13,443 nucleotides of DNA, taken from positions 1-13,443 of the forward strand of contig JACQVT010000719.1 of assembly GCA_016209665.1 (NCBI GenBank), in the 5' to 3' direction. The notes under the pieces are model-generated. The model was given only the letters and a program-made list of their open reading frames with translations. It was not told the DNA's origin and searched no databases. Source of the DNA: Planctomycetota bacterium (lineage in GTDB: Bacteria > Planctomycetota > Phycisphaerae > UBA1845 > PWPN01). Shown here piece by piece: positions 1,543-13,443 of the stretch. The position numbers were made by a program, and so were the translations under genes. Numbering within the stretch: the first letter of the stretch is position 1; the number at the start of each line of letters is the position of its first letter.

Positions 1543-1974
1543 GAGGGACGACCGGGCCGTGGGGACCGCAAGTCACGGTGTTCTTGACATCCGTCAGTTG
1601 TATGGCACCGGGCAGCGATGCTGTTGAGAACCGGATGACCGCTCACTCCGGCGCCGGCGGTCTCCTATGTGGGAGCGATTCCCCCGGACTGTACTTTGAC
1701 TCCAGATGACCATGGCATCCTTCGGGCGGACTTCGACCATGACGGCGACATAGACCAGGCCGACTTCGCCACGTGGCAGGTTTGTTACAGTGGATCTCTT
1801 CTCGCCGATCCAGACTGCGCCAACTGACCGTGCAGCCTGCTGTTGCCCCGCGAGTTCACCGCAGGACAGACATCGCCCGCCTACCCCGGCACGCGCTGCC
1901 TGGCGGGACGATCGAGCATGCGAGTTGCCCGGTCCCTTGTCAGTGGCCCGAGGGCGGGCCATACTGGCCCCGCG
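1543..1974. other. 432-bp gap with a dockerin remnant and no intact gene
   Basis: No complete gene fits here. The stretch 1543-1638 holds nothing I can name. From 1639 to 1827 there is an orphan dockerin tail (listed separately). From 1828 to 1974 the frame of the downstream transporter stays open from a TTG at 1843 and includes an ATG at 1918, but its translation (MPREFTAGQTSPAYPGTRC...) is neither membrane-like nor like a signal peptide, so I treat it as leader DNA. I found no good promoter or terminator. Confidence 0.5.
1639..1827 (+). pseudogene. Orphan C-terminal dockerin-like fragment
   Basis: After an in-frame stop at 1636-1638 the frame reads PLTPAPAVSYVG, then RADFDHDGDIDQADF, ATWQVCYSGSLLADPDCAN and a stop at 1825-1827. 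The Asp-rich loop, the helix with a central Cys and the 'ADPDCAN' ending match the second half and natural C terminus of planctomycete dockerin-like tails. There is no ATG, no ribosome-binding site and no preceding first repeat, so this is probably the remnant of a deleted gene. It is in the same frame as the propeller gene, but several stops lie between them, so simple readthrough is not supported. Confidence 0.6.
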
Positions 1975-3405
1975 ATGGCACGGATTCAGCCGGTGCTCGG
2001 GCTCCTGGTGATGGTCGGGTTGATGTATGCGTTCAGCGCCGACCGGCGGGCGGTGCGCTGGCGGGTGGTGGTTTGGGGGCTGGCACTTCAGTTCATCTTC
2101 GCGCTGTTCGTCCTGCATACGTCGGTGGGGCAGGCGTTCTTCGACGGGGTCAACCGCGGCTTCATGGGTGTGATGAAGGCGGCCCAGGAGGGGGCGGCGT
2201 TCGTGTTCGGCCCGCCCGGCGTGACCGACGACGTGCCGGTGGGCCACGTGGGGCCGGGCGGCGAGTTCAGGCAGATCGGCTCGACGGTCGCCCGCGTCGG
2301 CTTTCAGTTCGCGTTCCGGGCGCTGCCGCCCATCATCTTCTTCTCGGCCCTGATGGCGATCGGATACCACCTGGGCGTGATGCAGTGGATCGTCCGAGCG
2401 TTCGCCAAGGTGATGTCGGTGTCGATGAAAACCAGCGGGGCCGAGACCATGTCGGCCGCGGCGAACATCTTCGTCGGCCAGACCGAGGCCCCGCTCATGG
2501 TGCGGCCCTACGTCAACTCGATGACCAATTCCGAACTGATGGCCATCATGGTGGGGGGGTTCGCCAACACGGCCGGCGGCGTCATGCTGATGTACATCAG
2601 CATGTTGCAGGACCGCGTGCCGGACATCGGGGCCCACCTGCTGACCAGCAGCGTGCTGACCGGGCCGGCCTCGCTGATGATGGCCAAGCTGCTGCTGCCC
2701 GAAACCGCCCGGCCGACCACCCTTGACACGCCGCGGCCCTTGACACGCGATGCGGCTTCGCCGCTCTTGGACGCTTCGCGTCCGGTCGCGCGTCAAGGGC
2801 GGTCGCGTTCGCGACCAGGAGCGGCAGAGCCGCGCGGCGAGTCAAGGGCCACCGCGGGCGACGTGCGGATCGAGCTGCCCAGGACCGACGCGAACCTGAT
2901 CGACGCCGCCGCCCGCGGTACGCAGGAGGGCCTGGGCCTCGCTCTGAACGTGGCCGCGATGCTGATCGTGTTCATCGCGATGGTCGCCCTGGCGGACCTA
3001 GGCCTGGCGTGGACCAGCCAGCACGTGTTTGGCGCCGAACAGCCGTGGACGCTGGCGACGATCTTCGGCAAGCTGTTCTGGCCGCTGGCCTGGCTGATGG
3101 GCGTGCCGCTGATGGACTGCGCGGCCGTGGGCAACCTGTTGGGCGTCAAGACGTTCCTCAACGAGCTGGTCGCCTACAAGCAACTGGCCGACACGGGCGG
3201 CGGGCTGTCGGACCGGTCGTACCTGATCGCCTCGTATGCCCTGTGCGGGTTCGCGAACATCGGGTCCATCGGCATCCAGATCGGCGGCATCGGGGCGATG
3301 GCCCCGGAACGCCGCGGCGACCTGGCCCGCCTTGGCGTCAAGGCGATGATCGCCGGTTCGTTCGCGACGTTCTCGGCGGCGTGCGTCGTGGCCATCCTCG
3401 TGTAG
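1975..3405 (+). CDS. Concentrative nucleoside transporter, CNT family, with a repeat-derived loop
   Basis: An inner-membrane cation-coupled nucleoside importer. From the ATG at 1975 it has 476 residues. Hydrophobic helices occur near residues 5-20, 31-52, 110-135, 190-210, 222-245, 320-345, 360-380, 413-440 and 450-476. The substrate-binding residues known from the Vibrio cholerae CNT structure all have counterparts: Q169-T170-E171 in VGQTEAPL, E397 in LNELVAYK, and N428 and S431 in GFANIGSIGI. These strongly support an active nucleoside permease. Residues about 249-292 are an Arg/Pro-rich insertion encoded by a nested inverted repeat, and without it the length would be normal for the family. 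The start is uncertain: TTG 1843 and ATG 1918 are in frame upstream, but 1975 begins right before the first helix. None has a strong ribosome-binding site. It has no operon partner. Confidence 0.92.
   Translation: MARIQPVLGLLVMVGLMYAFSADRRAVRWRVVVWGLALQFIFALFVLHTSVGQAFFDGVNRGFMGVMKAAQEGAAFVFGPPGVTDDVPVGHVGPGGEFRQIGSTVARVGFQFAFRALPPIIFFSALMAIGYHLGVMQWIVRAFAKVMSVSMKTSGAETMSAAANIFVGQTEAPLMVRPYVNSMTNSELMAIMVGGFANTAGGVMLMYISMLQDRVPDIGAHLLTSSVLTGPASLMMAKLLLPETARPTTLDTPRPLTRDAASPLLDASRPVARQGRSRSRPGAAEPRGESRATAGDVRIELPRTDANLIDAAARGTQEGLGLALNVAAMLIVFIAMVALADLGLAWTSQHVFGAEQPWTLATIFGKLFWPLAWLMGVPLMDCAAVGNLLGVKTFLNELVAYKQLADTGGGLSDRSYLIASYALCGFANIGSIGIQIGGIGAMAPERRGDLARLGVKAMIAGSFATFSAACVVAILV
2720..2848. 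repeat. Nested inverted repeat inserted in frame within the CNT gene
   Basis: The 8-mer cccttgac occurs at 2720-2727 and 2737-2744, and its complement gtcaaggg at 2792-2799 and 2841-2848. The arms extend: 2737-2750 pairs with 2786-2799 at 13 of 14 positions, and gcggcttcgccgctcttgg (2752-2770) pairs with 2812-2830 except at three positions. The block is 129 bp (43 codons), has no stop in the transporter's frame, and encodes LDTPRPLTRDAASPLLDASR and following Arg-rich residues in a loop between membrane helices. It looks like a palindromic repeat that landed in a tolerant loop. Confidence 0.7.
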
Positions 3406-5901: not shown

Positions 5902-7020
5902 TTACTCCGCGCCGGAACTGGCGGCTCTGGCGGGCGGCTCGCCGGGCCGGGTGTCGGCGGAAGAATCGTCGGCCGAGGTCTTTTTCGGAACCTCCGGCGT
6001 CTTCACCTTCAACGGCATCGCGGTGGCCATGTAGTAGACGTTCGGTGTCTTGACGTCGGCGAAGTTGCGATCGACGTGCTTGAGGAGGGGTTCGAGCAGG
6101 CTCGCGGCGGCGGGCTGCGTCGAGGCCCGCAGGCGGTCGATCCACTGCTCCACGATGCGCCGCTGCACCAGCCCCACCAGCCGTCTGGCGTTGTTGCGTT
6201 CCTGATTCTGATTATCCATCCAGGTCCTGAGCGTGGCGTCCACACGCGACAGGAGGGTGGTGGCGGCCGCCGACTCACCCGCCTCGGCGATCAGGCGGCA
6301 TCGCAGCAGACGGCTCATGAGGTCGTAGGGCATGTGCTCGGGCTTGGCCAGGACGGCGGGCAGGGCCTCGAGGGCCCGCTCGGGGTTGCCGCCCTCGTTG
6401 AGCGCGAACGCCTGCCACAGCAGGGCGGCGGCGGCGGTGTCGGCGTCGCTCGATTCGCGGGCGACGGCCAGCCCGCGGCCGGCCTTGCGCCACTTTTCCT
6501 TCGCGGCTGCATCGCTCGGCTCCAGGTCGGCTTCGTGCAGCACGGCCGCGAACGCCGCGATCGTGTCGGCCGACTGCAACAGGTCGCGCCGCTGCTGCTT
6601 CGTGTCGGCCTGCTCGGGTCCGGTGGATGGCGCACGCTCAAGGATCGCTCTCGCGTGGTCAACCTGCTCCTCGGCGGCACGGGCCGCCTTTGCGATCGAA
6701 CGGCGATCGGTGGCGGTCTCCAGCTTGAGCAGCCACCGCGTGGCGGGTCGGGCGGTCGGGACCGCGACCCACCAGTTCGCCAGCGCCAGGTGTGCCCGCG
6801 CCTTGGCGAGGCCGTCGCGCGCTTCGTCCAGGCGGGCCTCCAGCGAGCGGCGGTCGGCGTCGTTTTGCTTCTGAAGGTCGCCGGGGTCGGCCAGCACCCG
6901 CTCCCAGTCGATCGCCCCCGACGCTCGCTCGTCGTTGGCCGCTCGCACCTCGGTTGCAAGCGCCGCCAGCAGCAGCCCCAGCCCGATCCATGCCGTGGTT
7001 CTCGTCGTACCGAGCATCAT
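5902..7020 (-). CDS. Exported helical repeat (TPR-like) protein of unknown function
   Basis: 372 residues on the minus strand, with ATG at 7018-7020 and an adjacent second ATG at 7015-7017. The N terminus is a signal peptide (MMLGTTRTTAWIGLGLLLAALATEVRA) with no lipobox Cys. The rest is almost wholly helical and Ala/Arg/Glu-rich, with TPR-like pairs such as ALLWQAFALNEGGNPERALE followed by VLAKPEHMPYDLMSRLLRCRL. The C terminus (about 330-372) is a low-complexity tail rich in Pro, Ser, Asp and Ala. I do not recognise a family with a known function. It is divergent from the ExbB/ExbD operon with a 90-bp gap, so it may share control with it and could be another periplasmic partner. That link is positional only. 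I see no strong ribosome-binding site. Confidence 0.75.
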   Translation of the reverse strand: MMLGTTRTTAWIGLGLLLAALATEVRAANDERASGAIDWERVLADPGDLQKQNDADRRSLEARLDEARDGLAKARAHLALANWWVAVPTARPATRWLLKLETATDRRSIAKAARAAEEQVDHARAILERAPSTGPEQADTKQQRRDLLQSADTIAAFAAVLHEADLEPSDAAAKEKWRKAGRGLAVARESSDADTAAAALLWQAFALNEGGNPERALEALPAVLAKPEHMPYDLMSRLLRCRLIAEAGESAAATTLLSRVDATLRTWMDNQNQERNNARRLVGLVQRRIVEQWIDRLRASTQPAAASLLEPLLKHVDRNFADVKTPNVYYMATAMPLKVKTPEVPKKTSADDSSADTRPGEPPARAASSGAE

Positions 7021-7110: not shown

Positions 7111-8085
7111 ATGGGCGCGGAATCGACCCTGGTTGCGGCGGTAAGGTCGGGTGGTCCGGTCAGCCGGCTGGTACGCTCCAGCGCATTCGCCTGGATGCTG
7201 TCGGTCGCGCTGCATGGGGCGCTGTTCCTGGTGTTCTACCAGTTGGGCTTCGGCAAGGCCGCGTCCGTCCGCCGCCTCATCATCCCCGAGGCGCGGCTGG
7301 CCGTCGGCCCGGCCCCGGTGCTGCCCCGGCCCGATGCCCCGGTGAAGTTCGCCTCGGAAGACCCCGGCGCGGCGGCGCGGGCGGCGACCCGGACGCCGCG
7401 GCTGGACGAACTGCCCATCGTCAGCGTCGAGTCGCGCGGCCCGGGTGCCGCCGGCGTCGTGGTTTCGGGACCGCCGCTGTTGGCCCTGCCCGGCGTGGAC
7501 GCAGCGGGCACCGGTACCGCGCTGGGTTCCGCCGGCGCGGGTGGAGGGCCGGCGGCCTTCGGGCCGGTCAGCCGGTTCTTCGGCCAGGCGGGCAACGCTT
7601 ACAAGGTGGTCTACGTGGTGGACGTGTCGGCCTCGCTGATGTACTACACCGACGACATCATCCGCGAGATGCAGGACTCGATTCGCGATTTGCTGCCGAC
7701 GCAGGAGTTCCACATGGTCCTGGCCATGCCCCGCGAGATTCGCGAGTTCGAGCCGCGCCGGCTCGTGCCCGCCAACGCCCGCTACAAGGGGATGGCCTAC
7801 GACTTCATGCGGGTGATTGCCGGCGTGCCCAAGCCCGGCAAGGCCGATCCGATCGAGGCCATGCGGCGGGCGTTCGCGGCCCGGCCTGAGTTGATCTACT
7901 TCCTGACCGACGGCGACTACCCGGACGTGGAGTCCGACCTGGAATCGACGCTTAAGGAACTGAACCGCGCCGGCGACGTGAAGATCACCGTGATCGGGTT
8001 CGATCCGTCCCCCGCCCCCCGCGCCCTCCTGGAGCGCATCGCCAGAACGAACGGGGGGCACTGCCGGTTCGTGGAGCCTAAATGA
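7111..8085 (+). CDS. VWA-domain protein with a TonB-like N-terminal membrane anchor
   Basis: 324 residues; ggag at 7101-7104 lies 6 nt before the ATG. Residues 1-26 are cytoplasmic, and about 27-47 form one transmembrane helix reading AWMLSVALHGALFLVFYQLGF. Ser31 and His35 have the S-x3-H spacing of the TonB/TolA 'SHLS' helix, the part that contacts ExbB/ExbD or TolQ/TolR; the later Leu and Ser of that motif are not kept. Residues about 50-160 are a Pro/Ala/Gly-rich linker. The C-terminal VWA domain begins with KVVYVVDVSAS: Asp171, Ser173 and Ser175 form an intact DxSxS metal site, and TDGDYPD (Thr266-Asp267) supplies the second acidic loop. It should face the periplasm. It heads the operon with ExbB and two ExbDs, so I infer it is the energised partner. 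The family label VWA is firm; the TonB-like role is a hypothesis. Confidence 0.88.
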   Translation: MGAESTLVAAVRSGGPVSRLVRSSAFAWMLSVALHGALFLVFYQLGFGKAASVRRLIIPEARLAVGPAPVLPRPDAPVKFASEDPGAAARAATRTPRLDELPIVSVESRGPGAAGVVVSGPPLLALPGVDAAGTGTALGSAGAGGGPAAFGPVSRFFGQAGNAYKVVYVVDVSASLMYYTDDIIREMQDSIRDLLPTQEFHMVLAMPREIREFEPRRLVPANARYKGMAYDFMRVIAGVPKPGKADPIEAMRRAFAARPELIYFLTDGDYPDVESDLESTLKELNRAGDVKITVIGFDPSPAPRALLERIARTNGGHCRFVEPK

Positions 8086-9305
8086 ACGTCTGGCCGCACG
8101 GACATCGTGACACGCTTGCCACTGGATGGCGTCGGGTGTGCCTGCTTGCAGCGGTGCTGGCCGCCGCCGCGCGGGGCGACGTTATCGCGGTCAAGGGTCA
8201 GCCGCCGCTGGTCAACACGCGGATCGTGCGGCTGCACGAGGGCAGGCTGGTCTGCGTGACCGACCCGGGCGGCGAGCAGGCCTTTCCGCTCGACCAGGTG
8301 GACTACATGCAGGTCACGGGTTGGCAAATGTTCGATCTGGCCGAGAGGCAGCGGCGGACGGGCGATTGGCATCGGGCCGCTGGCAGCTATGAGAAGGCGC
8401 TGGCGGAGTTGGAGGTGGGCGCCGAGCCATCCAGTGCGACGGACCCCGCGCCGCCGGCTGTCGTCGCCTCCGACGACCCGCTCGACCGGCTGCTGCTGGT
8501 GAAATGTCGGCTGATCCAGGCCTGCGACGCCCAAGGCCGGTTCGAGCGGGCGGTGGAGCTGTACCTCGACGTCATCGAGCGGATGCCGGCGGTCGTCGAG
8601 ACGCTGCGTCCGCGACGCTTCCCGGAGACCGGCCTCGCCTGGATCGACACCGCCGGGCGGCAGGTGGACGCCGTCATCGCCCGCCGCGGCGCCGACGACG
8701 TCGCCGCGTCGCTGCGCCGTTGGCGGGCCACCTGGCCCAAACCGGCGGCGTCGGCCCCGGAATCCACCAGCGTGGCGCCTATGGTAGCCGACGTCGATCC
8801 GAGGCTGCGGGCCGCGGTGGCCGAGGTCGCGGGCCTGGTCCAGTCCGGTCGCGCGAACGAGGCATTGTCACGTATCGATGGGCTGCACGACCAAGTCCGC
8901 GGCACACCGCGGGCGGACGTGTTCTACTGGCAGGGACGCGCTGTGCAGTTGAAGATTCCACCGGCCGCGGCCACGCGACCGGCGGAGGGCGGGGCGGGGC
9001 AGGTGCTCGGGGTCATGGACCGGCAGGATGCCGGTCCCACACAAGCAGACCGGCAAGCTGCCGGTCCCACAAATGTCGATCCCACACTGGCCCGGGCGGG
9101 GCTGGCCTACTTGCGGGTGGCGGTCCATTTCCCCGGACACCCGCTGGCGCCGGAGTGCCTGTACCGCGCCGGTGAGTTGTGTCGGCAGGCGGGGCGAACC
9201 GAGCAGGCGAAGTCGCTGTGGGCGGAACTCATCGCCACGTACCCGCAAACGCGGGGCCCCGACGGCACGGTGTGGGCCGACCGCGCGCGGGAGGAGCTGA
9301 AATGA
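8082..9305 (+). CDS. Exported TPR protein of the ExbBD operon
   Basis: 407 residues. Its ATG overlaps the upstream TGA (ATGA at 8082-8085), suggesting translational coupling. Residues about 17-32 (RVCLLAAVLAAAARG) are a signal peptide or anchor. A short beta-rich segment follows (DVIAVKGQPPLVNTRIV...), then helical repeats of TPR type: MFDLAERQRRTGDWHRAAGS, KCRLIQACDAQGRFERAVEL, VAGLVQSGRANEALSRIDGL, and YRAGELCRQAGRTEQAKSLW. TPRs bind other proteins, so a scaffold role in the periplasm is likely. Residues 313-334 (DRQDAGPTQADRQAAGPTNV) are the translation of an inserted DNA repeat and lie in a linker between helices. No catalytic motif is visible. Confidence 0.85.
   Translation: MNVWPHGHRDTLATGWRRVCLLAAVLAAAARGDVIAVKGQPPLVNTRIVRLHEGRLVCVTDPGGEQAFPLDQVDYMQVTGWQMFDLAERQRRTGDWHRAAGSYEKALAELEVGAEPSSATDPAPPAVVASDDPLDRLLLVKCRLIQACDAQGRFERAVELYLDVIERMPAVVETLRPRRFPETGLAWIDTAGRQVDAVIARRGADDVAASLRRWRATWPKPAASAPESTSVAPMVADVDPRLRAAVAEVAGLVQSGRANEALSRIDGLHDQVRGTPRADVFYWQGRAVQLKIPPAAATRPAEGGAGQVLGVMDRQDAGPTQADRQAAGPTNVDPTLARAGLAYLRVAVHFPGHPLAPECLYRAGELCRQAGRTEQAKSLWAELIATYPQTRGPDGTVWADRAREELK
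9018..9087 (+). repeat. Tandem REP-like hairpins inside the TPR gene
   Basis: Two 30-bp units begin at 9018 and 9048. Each starts with a hairpin (gaccggcaggatgccggtc; gaccggcaagctgccggtc) followed by ccaca, and a decayed third piece, gatcccacac, follows at 9078-9087. Stems have 8-bp arms and 3-nt loops. The loops differ (gga, agc) while the stems are identical. The same unit in the opposite orientation is at 58-81. The array has no stop in the gene's frame. On the opposite strand it reads GTGILPV and GTGSLPV, a phrase common in spurious translations of such repeats. Confidence 0.75.
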
Positions 9306-10039
9306 TGAACGTTGCCTTGGGTGCGATTTCATGGATGGGCCGCGGCGGGCTGGTCCTGGCCGCCGAGGACCTGCGCGGGCCGTCGGTGTTCCAGCACTTC
9401 GTCGTCGCGGGCGGCTGGATCACCTGGTGCCTGCTGATCCCACTGTCGATGGCCACCGTGGCCCTGACGATTCAGTACCTGATCACCATCCGCCGTGCGA
9501 CTCAGATGCCGATCTCGCTGGCCAAGGCCCTGGTCGCCGCCGCCAGACAGGGTCAGCGGCGAAACATTCTCGAGACCACGCGCGATAGCGACACCATGCT
9601 CGGCCAGGCTGCCTACGCCGCTGCTCTGCACACCGCCGACGGCATGGACGCCGCCATGGCCGGCGTCGATGAAGCGGTCGAGGACCGGGTCGGCCGCCTC
9701 ATGCGGCGGGTCGAGTACCTCAGCGTCATCGGCAACGTCAGCCCCATGATCGGCCTGCTGGGCACGGTCGTGGGCATGATCCAGGCCTTCAACCGCATCT
9801 ACACCGCCGGCGGCGGCGTGCCCGAGACCAGCAAGCTGGTCGGCGACATCGCCATTGCCCTGGTCAACACGTTCTGGGGACTGGCGATCGCAATCCCGGC
9901 CCTGACGATGTATGCGTTTTTCCGCAACCGGGTGGACGCCTTCGCGTCGGATTGCATCCGGCTCTCCGGCGGGCTGGCAGCGTCGCTGGTCGACGCCGAA
10001 CGGACAGCGGGCGCCGCGCCCGCCACCGCACGCACCTGA
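9302..10039 (+). CDS. exbB: ExbB/TolQ/MotA-family proton channel subunit
   Basis: An inner-membrane subunit that, with ExbD, converts proton flow into movement of a partner protein. The ATG at 9302 overlaps the previous stop (ATGA at 9302-9305) and follows ggaggag at 9290-9296, giving 245 residues. An N-terminal hydrophobic stretch is followed by transmembrane helix 1 (about 38-63, GGWITWCLLIPLSMATVALT), a cytoplasmic domain, then the family signature GNVSPMIGLLGTVVGMIQAF (144-163) in helix 2 and VNTFWGLAIAIPALTMYAFF in helix 3. Thr155 and Thr190 match the channel-lining threonines of helices 2 and 3 in ExbB. The symbol denotes the family; sequence alone does not separate ExbB from TolQ here. 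Confidence 0.95.
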   Translation: MMNVALGAISWMGRGGLVLAAEDLRGPSVFQHFVVAGGWITWCLLIPLSMATVALTIQYLITIRRATQMPISLAKALVAAARQGQRRNILETTRDSDTMLGQAAYAAALHTADGMDAAMAGVDEAVEDRVGRLMRRVEYLSVIGNVSPMIGLLGTVVGMIQAFNRIYTAGGGVPETSKLVGDIAIALVNTFWGLAIAIPALTMYAFFRNRVDAFASDCIRLSGGLAASLVDAERTAGAAPATART

Positions 10040-10072: not shown

Positions 10073-10513
10073 ATGGCAGACGCTCGCAGACAACGCGGTC
10101 CCGCCGGCTGGCACTTCAACATGACGCCGCTGATCGACGTCACGTTTTTGCTGCTGACCTATTTCATGCTGGCCAGCCACTACGCCTCGGCCGAGAAGCC
10201 GGACATCGCCCTGCCCCGTCCGCACGAAAGCCAGGCCCAGGACCGCCCCTTGCAGGAGAAGATCTACGTCAACGTGCTGTACTACGGGCCGCGCAGCGAG
10301 CCGACGCTGATGCTGGGACCGGTGCGGATGGAGTCGCTCGATGAGTTGAGGGCCCGGCTCACCGTCGTCGGCCGCGCGGACCCGCAGACCCAGGTGGTGC
10401 TCCGGGCCGATCGTAACGTACGTTACGGCGAGGTCCGCCAGGTGATGGAGGCCGTCGCCGCCGCCAATCTGCCCCGCTTGCAGGTGGTGGCGGAGCTGGA
10501 GCCGCGTCCATGA
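10073..10513 (+). CDS. exbD: ExbD/TolR-family subunit, first copy
   Basis: 146 residues with one N-terminal helix (about 20-36) carrying NMTPLIDVTFLLLTYFML. Asp22 is the proton-carrying aspartate of the family. The periplasmic part ends with the usual ExbD/TolR fold features: VVLRADRNVRYGEVRQVMEA, then a final beta strand. The 33-nt gap to exbB is the largest inside the operon, and the ribosome-binding site is weak. An ATG at 10039 overlapping the exbB stop is out of frame with this protein. The normal family length and motif leave little doubt. It probably forms a mixed dimer with the second ExbD next door. Confidence 0.94.
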   Translation: MADARRQRGPAGWHFNMTPLIDVTFLLLTYFMLASHYASAEKPDIALPRPHESQAQDRPLQEKIYVNVLYYGPRSEPTLMLGPVRMESLDELRARLTVVGRADPQTQVVLRADRNVRYGEVRQVMEAVAAANLPRLQVVAELEPRP

Positions 10514-11064
10514 ACGCCCACGACGAATGGCAAGCGCTGCTGCCGCCCGAACCCGCCGGGCCGGACGATCGGGCCGGCGCCTCGGCGTGCCGACGCCGCA
10601 TCAGCTTTCGTCGCCGGCAGCGCAAGATTCCCTACGTAATCACCCTGAACCTGACGGCGATGATCGACACCATCTTCAACCTGCTCTTTTTGTTCATCAT
10701 CATCAGCCGGTTCGGAGCCATCGAGGGGATGTTGCCGGCCAGGTTGCCGGCCCGGGTGGCCCAGGCCGCCGCGCTGCCCGCCGCCGAGCTGCCGCGGGTG
10801 CCCATCCGCATCCGCCTGATCCCGGATGCCGCGAATCCGGCCGGCTGCCGGGCCACCATCGATCGCTTCAATGAAACGCCGGTCGAGCTGAAGGCCCTGC
10901 CCGCCGCCCTGCGGCGCATCCGCGACGCGGGTGTGGGTTTCGACCGGGCGACGCCCGTGCACCTGCTGGCCCGCGACGATGTCGCCTGGGACCACGTGGT
11001 CAACGCCTACAACGCGGCCATGGCCGCCGAGTTCGGGAAGATCTATTTTGCCGGGTCGTCGTGA
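10510..11064 (+). CDS. exbD: ExbD/TolR-family subunit, second copy, with a long basic N-terminal extension
   Basis: 184 residues; its ATG overlaps the first exbD stop (ATGA at 10510-10513). The transmembrane helix (about 42-66) contains LNLTAMIDTIFNLLFLFIII with the family aspartate at Asp53, so it should conduct protons. Compared with the first copy it has about 30 extra cytoplasmic residues, ending in a strongly basic patch (CRRRISFRRRQRK, 27-39), and PLID is replaced by AMID. The periplasmic domain ends VAWDHVVNAYNAAMAAEFGK, matching the terminal helix of the fold. The two copies are too different to be a recent duplication, which fits division of labour. Confidence 0.92.
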   Translation: MNAHDEWQALLPPEPAGPDDRAGASACRRRISFRRRQRKIPYVITLNLTAMIDTIFNLLFLFIIISRFGAIEGMLPARLPARVAQAAALPAAELPRVPIRIRLIPDAANPAGCRATIDRFNETPVELKALPAALRRIRDAGVGFDRATPVHLLARDDVAWDHVVNAYNAAMAAEFGKIYFAGSS

Positions 11065-11067
11065 ACC

Positions 11068-13443
11068 ATGATGCCTGTACGTCCGAGCCGTTGTTCAGCC
11101 TGCCTGCTGGTGCCGTTGGCGTTCGCGCTTCCGGGCCCGGTCGCCGCGCCGCCCGGACCAACCACGCAGCCGTTGCCCGACGTCGTCGACGACGTGGTGT
11201 TGTTCGAGACCCTGCGGCGACACGGGCTCGATGATTGGCTCCAGCAGTATCTGGCCGACGTCCCGCCCGCGGACAAAATCGGCGTCGCCCTGGCCGAGCG
11301 ACAACGCCTGTTGACTCGGGCCGCAGCGCCTGGCCGCTCCGCCGAGCAGGCCCGGGCCGATGTCGTCGAGGCTGGTCGACTCCTCACCGATCTGATCGCC
11401 GGGCACCCCGACGATCCCCGCAGCCTCCGCTGGCAGCTCGAGTTGGCCCGCGACTACCTCGAACGACAGTGTCCGTCGGCTTTCGAGAACTTGTTGATGT
11501 ACGAACTGCCCGGCCGGGATACGGCCATCGCGCGGGACTTGGCGAGCCGGACCATCGAGACGCTGCGCGAGCTGCGGCGTCGGATTGCCGACACCTGGAA
11601 GTCCGTAGAGGACCTGGACGAGTTCACCCTCACCGCCGTGCGCGGCTCTGGTTCGTTGTCCATGCTCGAATCGCTTGACGCTACCTCCGCGATGCTGATG
11701 ACCTGGGCGAAACTGTACCGGGCAGCCAGCGCCGGTGCCGACACGGATGACGGGCAACGAGTTGCCGCGTTCGCCGAGGTCCTCGCCGACGTGACGAAGT
11801 CCGGCTGGCTGGACCTGCCGCCCGGCCGCGAACCCGAGCAGGCGGGGGCATCCCTCATCGCCGCCGTCGCCGAGCGTCAGACCGGCCAATACGACCAGGC
11901 CGAAGGACGGGCCCGCCAGGTCATCGCACTGCTGGGTCGGATCACCGACCGCGCCGTTCGACAACGATTGCGGCAACTGGCCTTGCTCGCCGTCCTCGAG
12001 CAGATTCGGGCCGGCCGCGACGCCGGCCGGTACGACGCCGCCCTGCAGGGGATCGAGCCGGCCCGTCAGTGGTTCCTCAAGAATCGGCCGGATGAGCCGG
12101 CCCCGTTGGTGGCGATGGCCCTGCTCGAGGCCAGCATCCTCTCGCGCCGTCAGCAGTCCGTCTCCCAGCGGTCGGTCCCTTCGCGGCGGCCCGCCGCTTG
12201 GCCCGCCGCTTGGCTGCGGTCGTCGGAATGCCTCGACGCGATGCAGCGCTTGTGCAGCCTGTCATCGGCCCACCGCGACCTGCTGTACGCGGTTCTCGCG
12301 GCGTCACTGGGGTCGGTTCCGTTCGCCGATGATGTCCCGCCCTTCGGCCTGCAACTGCTGGTCGGAGCGGCGGTCGCCGACGCCGATTTCAACTCCACCG
12401 CGGACGCCTCCATTGCCGCCGGCCGGCTGCGCGACACCATCACTGCCGCTCGCCGGCCGATCGCCGCGGCGACGACCCAGGGCCACGCGCCACTGGCGGG
12501 TGAGATGCGCTACCTGCTCGGCCGGGCTCTCGCCGAGCAGGACAACCGGCTCGATGCGGTGCAGGTCCTCGCCGACCTTGTCGAGCAGTTCCCCGCGCAT
12601 GATCGCGGCGACGCCGCGGCCCGCCGGGCGGTGGGCCTGGCCACGGAAGAACTGCGTCGATCGGGTCCCGGCGGTTCACCGGCGTCGCGGGCGGCATTCG
12701 TACGGGCGGCTCGAATCCTGCGTCAGCGCCTGCCCGCCGATCCGAGCGCAGCGGAGTTGACCTATGCCGTCGCCGTCGCCCTTGAGAACGACGCCCGCTA
12801 CGAGGATGCCGCTGCCGAGTACGCGAGCGTGCCCGCCGGCCACCCACGCTCGCCTGACGCCGCACTCGGCCGGCTCCGCTCCTGGCGACAGGCGCTCGAT
12901 CAGGCGTCGGCCGATCGGCCACTGGACGCCACCGGTCTGGCCGGCCTGGCGGATCAGGCCAAGGCTGCCATCCGAGAGGTGCAGCGAACCGCGGTCACGC
13001 GCCCCGCACCCGGCGAGGCCGGCACCACTGGCCGCGGTCCCGATTGCGGCGAAGGTTCGCTGATCCTGGCCATCGCCGAACTGCTGAATCACCCGGCAGT
13101 GGGTGGGGCGGACGAAGCAGCTCGGCTGATGCGGGACTTCGATGCCCGCTTCGCTACGTGTCACGACCTGCTGGGGCCGGCTTTGCGGCAGCGGATTCTC
13201 GCCCTCAGACAACTGAGGAAATTGCAGGAAGCCCGCGGTATGGTGGACCGCTATCTCGCCGCCGATCCCGAGAACGCCGGCACGGTCATGGCCGGTCTGC
13301 TCCAGGCGATGCACGACGAGACCCAGGCCGCGTTGCGGCGCGGCGACGCCGCCGCCGGCACCGTCGCCGCCGAGGCGGTCCAGTTGGGCCAATCGTTGAT
13401 CGATTGGGCGGCGGCCCGGCCCGGCGGAATGACGCCTCTGAAC
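11068..13443 (+). CDS. Large exported TPR-type protein, incomplete at the window edge
   Basis: An open frame of 792 codons from ATG 11068 (a second ATG follows at 11071) to the last base, with no stop. It begins 3 nt after the second exbD stop, so it belongs to the operon. The N terminus (MMPVRPSRCSACLLVPLAFA, cut near PVAA) looks like a signal peptide. The rest is helical and Ala/Arg/Leu-rich with many TPR-like pairs, for example ERQTGQYDQAEGRARQVIAL, YLLGRALAEQDNRLDAVQVL, and VAVALENDARYEDAAAEYAS. It probably acts as a periplasmic scaffold for the ExbBD machine. Residues near 365-385 are low complexity and include a 12-bp tandem duplication. No enzyme motif is seen. The C terminus lies outside the window. 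Confidence 0.85.
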   Translation, partial: MMPVRPSRCSACLLVPLAFALPGPVAAPPGPTTQPLPDVVDDVVLFETLRRHGLDDWLQQYLADVPPADKIGVALAERQRLLTRAAAPGRSAEQARADVVEAGRLLTDLIAGHPDDPRSLRWQLELARDYLERQCPSAFENLLMYELPGRDTAIARDLASRTIETLRELRRRIADTWKSVEDLDEFTLTAVRGSGSLSMLESLDATSAMLMTWAKLYRAASAGADTDDGQRVAAFAEVLADVTKSGWLDLPPGREPEQAGASLIAAVAERQTGQYDQAEGRARQVIALLGRITDRAVRQRLRQLALLAVLEQIRAGRDAGRYDAALQGIEPARQWFLKNRPDEPAPLVAMALLEASILSRRQQSVSQRSVPSRRPAAWPAAWLRSSECLDAMQRLCSLSSAHRDLLYAVLAASLGSVPFADDVPPFGLQLLVGAAVADADFNSTADASIAAGRLRDTITAARRPIAAATTQGHAPLAGEMRYLLGRALAEQDNRLDAVQVLADLVEQFPAHDRGDAAARRAVGLATEELRRSGPGGSPASRAAFVRAARILRQRLPADPSAAELTYAVAVALENDARYEDAAAEYASVPAGHPRSPDAALGRLRSWRQALDQASADRPLDATGLAGLADQAKAAIREVQRTAVTRPAPGEAGTTGRGPDCGEGSLILAIAELLNHPAVGGADEAARLMRDFDARFATCHDLLGPALRQRILALRQLRKLQEARGMVDRYLAADPENAGTVMAGLLQAMHDETQAALRRGDAAAGTVAAEAVQLGQSLIDWAAARPGGMTPLN
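12190..12213 (+). repeat. 12-bp perfect tandem duplication
   Basis: cccgccgcttgg occurs twice in a row, giving PAAWPAAW at residues 375-382 of the large TPR protein. It keeps the frame and lies in a low-complexity Arg/Ser/Pro-rich stretch between helical repeats, so it is probably a slippage product in a linker. Confidence 0.7.

Follow-up and report, generated by a model that had tools for sequence, protein, structure and literature searches.

The first gene of a motor operon in the window (the whole stretch of 13,443 nucleotides that was analysed, from a draft genome 77.55% complete) encodes a protein that is best read, from its anatomy, helix motif and gene neighbourhood, as a vWA force transducer. 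The protein has a single N-terminal helix, a linker and a VWA domain; Ser31 and His35 in the helix are conserved among its orthologues, and the ExbB protein of the operon carries a matching conserved serine. Very probably, it is a transducer that is driven by the proton motive force and coupled to the ExbB/ExbD motor through these two residues. A class of vWA force transducers has already been described (Williams-Jones et al. 2025, Mol Biol Evol msaf138, PMC12204202), and the window protein is therefore a well-supported further example and not a new kind. The preliminary description of this DNA, which knew of no described TonB-VWA partner of this kind, was wrong on this point.

The VWA protein and its operon

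The genes and motifs of the window that concern the VWA protein are the following.

5902..7020, minus strand: divergent protein, a conserved neighbour
7111..8085, plus strand: putative VWA force-transducer protein, 324 aa (ATG at 7111, stop at 8085; helix, linker, VWA domain)
7201..7215, plus strand: codons S31 to H35 (SVALH), the S-x3-H motif and putative motor contact
7270..7299, plus strand: codons 54-63 (RRLIIPEARL), a conserved stretch shortly after the helix, candidate 'motor box' only
7621..7635, plus strand: codons D171-x-S173-x-S175, MIDAS motif 1
8082..9305, plus strand: TPR protein, 407 aa, overlapping the stop of the VWA gene (ATGA)
9302..10039, plus strand: ExbB/TolQ-like motor subunit, 245 aa from the ATG at 9302 (PF01618, 1.1e-25)
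10073..10513, plus strand: ExbD/TolR-like subunit 1, 146 aa (PF02472, 1.8e-21)
10510..11064, plus strand: ExbD/TolR-like subunit 2, 184 aa (PF02472, 3.3e-9)
11068..13443, plus strand: large protein that runs off the window, helical-repeat-like by eye

By hydropathy, there is one N-terminal transmembrane helix in the VWA protein, at about residues 26-47, and it holds both S31 and H35. It is followed by a linker of 104 residues (49-152) with 15 Pro, 22 Ala and 15 Gly, and by the VWA domain at residues 165-320. The VWA_3 score of the window protein is 24.9 bits, below the Pfam cut-off of 27, and four of the six relatives scanned pass a VWA cut-off. In the Pfam scan the protein has no TonB_C and no TolA match, a PDB sequence search found no relative up to E = 1, and a search of PHROGs gave nothing. 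The full four-residue SHLS motif is absent: the Leu and Ser of TonB and TolA are replaced by F and G at positions 42 and 46 of the window protein, and both positions vary across the 65 rows of the order-wide alignment described below. The preliminary description had already pointed out the single helix with its S-x3-H spacing, the Pro/Ala/Gly-rich linker and the retention of only the first two SHLS residues. All three hold, the first in residues and coordinates and the second in composition.

A canonical MIDAS in a VWA domain has D-x-S-x-S, a Thr and an Asp all present. In the window protein the D-x-S-x-S is present and D267 (bases 7909-7911) is kept, but the set is incomplete, as the Thr position is Ala245 (bases 7843-7845). 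The earlier wording of an "intact MIDAS" was therefore too strong, although it was right for the D-x-S-x-S part. Of the 11 rows from the window's family in the order-wide alignment, 10 have Ala at this position and one has His, whereas all 54 rows outside the family have Thr. The metal site of the VWA domain has thus changed specifically in this lineage, which has lost the MIDAS Thr.

The operon has the order VWA-TPR-ExbB-ExbD-ExbD, with the VWA gene first; it lies on one strand, is tightly packed and has three ATGA overlaps among its junctions. The TPR protein is probably exported, as judged by eye from its hydrophobic N-terminus. Its C-terminal repeats are weakly YbgF/CpoB-like (TIGR02795, 30.5 bits against a cut-off of 90.1), and the gene is present in 64 of the 81 loci compared below. 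A member of the large protein's family lies downstream, on the VWA strand, in 62/81 loci. The divergent family lies upstream in 44/81 and so may have its promoter region, or a function, in common with the VWA operon; some of the loci that lack the divergent or the large gene are short. Pfam scans of the large and of the divergent protein gave no match, so that neither neighbour has a Pfam name that could serve as a clue to the partner of the VWA head. Two further features lie elsewhere in the window. A Na+-dependent nucleoside transporter with Nucleos_tra2 domains (1843-3405) is apparently unrelated to the VWA operon, and the C-terminal end of an ORF at 100-384 contains two D-x-D-x-DGD-like repeats that resemble dockerin-type repeats.

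Conservation of the Ser/His pair and of the motor

A search of 120 genomes, including the window's own, gave a VWA match in 112, some of which cover only part of the protein or concern other VWA proteins, as in G048. From 79 related genomes 80 regions were fetched, which together with the window make 81 loci; 32 matching genomes, mostly lower-scoring, lie outside this set. S-x3-H is found in a hydrophobic N-terminal segment of 78 of the 84 VWA ORFs in these regions and the window. Of the six misses, three are truncated at the end of their contig (L044, L058, L092), and the other three are tandem VWA paralogues from L091. Similarly, the motif is present in the helix of 91 of the 95 database matches, window protein included, and the other four are without the N-terminus. 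In a control, only 4 of 305 other helix-bearing N-termini from the fetched regions carry S-x3-H, and 2 of 158 when the control is limited to unlabelled ORFs; the control ORFs are non-overlapping long frames and not curated genes. In the same test the motif is found in 59 of 61 VWA ORFs, and 8 further VWA ORFs have no helix within the 160 residues examined. L091 (G114:C39:76500-92000) is a locus with four successive VWA ORFs, three of them without S-x3-H, and with no motor gene in the region.

Alignments of the orthologues give the same picture. In an alignment of 69 of the 95 matches, hand-picked for diversity and with fragments excluded, S31 and H35 are the sole invariant columns before residue 157. 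They are also invariant in the order-wide alignment of 65 rows, which are 20-64% identical to the window protein; this invariance is partly built in by selection, because the rows were chosen from the 78 ORFs already shown to bear S-x3-H, and the unselected counts are the 78/84 VWA ORFs and the 91/95 database matches. The order-wide profile, made from these motif-bearing rows, was used for a phylum-wide search that matched 270 of 294 genomes, many only in the VWA domain. Among the best 30 phylum-wide loci S-x3-H is present in 28, window included, or 27/29 without the window, and it is missing in L175 and L183. An alignment of VWA orthologues had been proposed as a check in the preliminary description: Ser31 and His35 are conserved, and the outcome of non-conservation did not appear.

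Just after the helix, P59, E60 and A61 are conserved at 90% or more in the alignment of 69 matches. This segment is a candidate for the beta-strand "motor box" that follows the helix in the published class (PMC12204202). In TonB the D-box after the helix binds ExbD and is a proposed force handle, according to the available text of Loll et al. (PMC10907165). The strict E. coli D-box pattern, in residue classes of our own choosing, occurs in 0 of the 65 order-wide rows against a shuffle mean of 2.9, and E. coli TolA likewise lacks it in the same test.

The motor is conserved together with the VWA gene. ExbB lies downstream and on the same strand in 66/81 loci; six of the 15 loci without it run into a contig edge and nine do not. 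Each of the 65 loci with ExbD has two ExbD genes, and the proton-binding Asp is present in all 130 proteins (Asp22 in subunit 1 and Asp53 in subunit 2 of the window). In cryo-EM structures from E. coli, TonB Ser16/His20 interact with ExbB Ser34/Trp38 and TolA His22 touches TolQ Ser28/Trp32, and the roles that the Ser/His pair and the ExbB contact residues may have here are taken from these structures (PMC12215075, available text). In an ExbB alignment that included E. coli ExbB and TolQ, the equivalent of ExbB Ser34/TolQ Ser28 is S50 of the window ExbB, in a numbering that starts one residue before the ATG at 9302, and it is invariant (66/66). The pore Thr residues are invariant as well (66/66 and 65/65) and the Pro of TM3 is kept in 54/65, whereas the equivalent of ExbB Trp38/TolQ Trp32 is replaced, mostly by I/V/L. 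A Ser at the contact position may be general in ExbB proteins. The available text of the structural study describes the Leu and the second Ser of SHLS as less well conserved in Ton too, and therefore the full motif was not treated as defining (PMC12215075). The coupling to ExbB/ExbD through Ser31/His35, as first proposed from the DNA alone, is well supported by the conservation in the orthologues and by the invariant ExbB serine.

At the genome level, 58 of 61 genomes have a VWA match, and all but one of them (57) contain two or more ExbD matches; the three that lack a VWA match each contain fewer than two. The co-occurrence gives a Fisher value of 1.1e-4, or 4.4e-4 if G048, where the motor pair comes without a VWA match of the S-x3-H type, is counted as VWA-negative; relatedness between the genomes is ignored in both values. 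In the window's family 12/13 genomes have exactly two ExbD matches; the exception is G011, which is 55% complete and lacks any. We also considered whether the window's genome might contain another ExbBD system and rejected this, as the only other MotA_ExbB match (on C85) has no adjoining ExbD match; its neighbours look flagellar. In G004, G005, G012 and G045 the motor genes are distant from the VWA gene or lie on a different contig. Near the separate motor genes of G045 there is another S-x3-H hydrophobic segment (L218), in an apparently multi-pass protein. Seven of 53 Planctomycetota loci, many of which are the same contigs as the 80 fetched regions, have S-x3-H but no ExbB by profiles (L157, L158, L159, L165, L166, L168, L169). 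The VWA ORFs of L158, L165, L166, L168 and L169 are longer than 800 aa, with S-x3-H in the N-terminal hydrophobic segment.

Relation to the published class, TonB and TolA

The published class is defined by an N-terminal single helix, a long linker and a C-terminal vWA domain, and its neighbourhood contains a TPR gene, a tolQ-like gene and a pair of tolR-like genes; many members have the full SHLS (PMC12204202). It rests on gene neighbourhood, helix motif and AlphaFold 3 models, and in the available text the authors assign no function and report no deletion phenotype (PMC12204202). The window protein shares the helix-linker-VWA plan, the Ser/His pair and the TPR, tolQ-like and paired tolR-like genes, a likeness judged by features. 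However, here the VWA gene precedes the TPR and motor genes, while the paper, in its available text, words it as downstream; the Leu and second Ser of SHLS are also missing, and the window's family has Ala in place of the MIDAS Thr. A literature search of titles and abstracts found no other paper describing the class among the matches listed. To our knowledge, there is no experiment on such VWA transducers.

Both classical systems resemble the one in the window. With TonB-ExbB-ExbD it shares the S-x3-H helix, a rod-like linker, the ExbB Ser and pore Thr residues and the ExbD Asp; it differs in the VWA head, the lack of TonB_C, the two different ExbDs, the replaced ExbB Trp38 (mostly by I/V/L) and the absence of the strict D-box. 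With TolA-TolQ-TolR of Tol-Pal it shares the S-x3-H helix, the motor and the TPR gene with its weak likeness to CpoB/YbgF; in contrast, there is no TolA match, and neither TolB nor Pal was matched among the scanned window genes. OmpA-like domains, found in 61/61 genomes, are the domain of Pal and also of other proteins.

The preliminary description regarded the protein as a possible substitute for TonB or TolA and named a separate tonB or tolA gene in the same operon of related genomes as a refuting outcome, which did not appear. TonB_C is matched in 16/120 genomes, 15 of them over the cut-off, and in none of the 16 is it on a contig with a VWA match, the contigs being those of draft assemblies. 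Several points favour a reading in which the VWA protein truly replaces TonB in energising receptors, at least where a genome has receptors but no TonB. A Plug receptor is found in 24 of the 61 genomes, and 21 of these 24 have no TonB_C match. Within the window's family, seven of 13 genomes have a Plug receptor (G003, G004, G005, G008, G009, G010 and G012; L220-L229), and none of the 13 has TonB_C or TonB_2 over the cut-off even in a laxer search, with weak matches below it in 2/13 and 6/13. The ten regions around the receptors of the seven genomes contain no S-x3-H helix protein, and the single pair of ExbD matches in 12/13 family genomes also fits. Still, the VWA gene is present in the six family genomes where no Plug receptor was found, including the window's own (77.55% complete) and G001, of the same genus and listed as 100% complete. 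In the three genomes that have both (G039, G042, G060), TonB_C lies within about 3 kb of the receptor. Further, the head is not a TonB domain, and a divergent TonB may have been missed. Serving TonB-dependent receptors is thus unlikely as a general role, because the gene occurs in genomes without a Plug receptor found, and even the restricted role seems improbable to us. The four family receptors scanned match the barrel and plug of TonB-dependent receptors, and those scanned in G003, G004 and G005 adjoin an ABC_sub_bind protein. A fuller version for the window's family, in which TonB was lost, the VWA protein became the only client of the sole ExbB-ExbD motor and its head with the altered MIDAS would drive outer-membrane work including TonB-dependent receptors, is a long shot.

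The remaining alternatives concern the motor itself. The VWA protein could be bound to the motor as a regulator or scaffold of ExbB/ExbD, for instance for ligand-gated proton flow, instead of as a force rod. The Ser/His contact is proposed to signal into ExbB TM3 via Ser, Trp and Pro (PMC12215075, available text); the Ser (66/66) and the Pro (54/65) of this chain are kept, and the strict D-box, the proposed force handle (PMC10907165, available text), is absent. The Trp of the chain is replaced, however, and a long Pro/Ala/Gly-rich linker, the plan of TonB and TolA, would be needless for a local regulator, which makes this reading unlikely. It is very improbable that the protein replaces ExbD in the motor pore, as in the published pore-helix vWA/TolQ pairs, which likewise combine a vWA head with a neighbouring TolQ-like gene but have, in the available text, no ExbD and an Asp in the helix (PMC12204202). 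Here all 65 ExbD loci carry two Asp-bearing ExbDs, and the window helix is free of Asp and has S-x3-H, which contradicts such an identity. Lastly, S-x3-H could have arisen by chance in a helix that only anchors the protein in the membrane, and the VWA gene could stand next to the motor genes by accident. The motif does occur in 4/305 other N-terminal helices, but against 78/84 VWA ORFs, near-complete conservation at 20-64% identity and a conserved operon, chance is hardly credible.

Several observations also count against motor coupling. The Trp partner of the His is replaced in ExbB, SHLS has lost its Leu and its second Ser, and the strict D-box occurs less often than in shuffles (0/65). Nine loci without ExbB are not at a contig edge, the motor genes are apart in G004, G005, G012 and G045, 7/53 loci have S-x3-H without ExbB by profiles, G048 has a motor pair without a VWA match of this type, and L175 and L183 lack the motif. 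Finally, the Ser at the contact position may be a general feature of ExbB.

A possible mechanism and its meaning

We suggest that the VWA protein acts as a force transducer in the following way. Ser31 and His35 would attach the single helix to the outer face of the ExbB pentamer, as in TonB and TolA, and the two ExbD subunits would sit in the ExbB pore, where proton flow would move them. The linker of 104 residues could then span the periplasm, and the VWA head would grip a partner, which would in turn be pulled. That the protein actually transmits force we infer from the work in E. coli. The partner of the head would lie in the periplasm or the outer membrane, and the TPR protein of the operon is a possible candidate. 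As the VWA system appears to be more general than the receptors, a Tol-like rather than a Ton-like role would fit better, and a role of the head in envelope maintenance is our tentative preference over nutrient uptake.

To the published class, the present analysis adds conservation at the scale of orthologues, the conserved ExbB serine and the single ExbD pair of the family, as well as the order of the genes and the loss of the MIDAS Thr that is specific to the family. As this family has lost the Thr but retained the motor contacts, it offers a natural comparison for the question of whether the head depends on metal. Ser31 and His35 are the sole invariants outside the head and the ExbB serine is invariant too; this makes a third type of envelope rod, which would stand beside TonB and TolA, worth bench testing in Planctomycetota.
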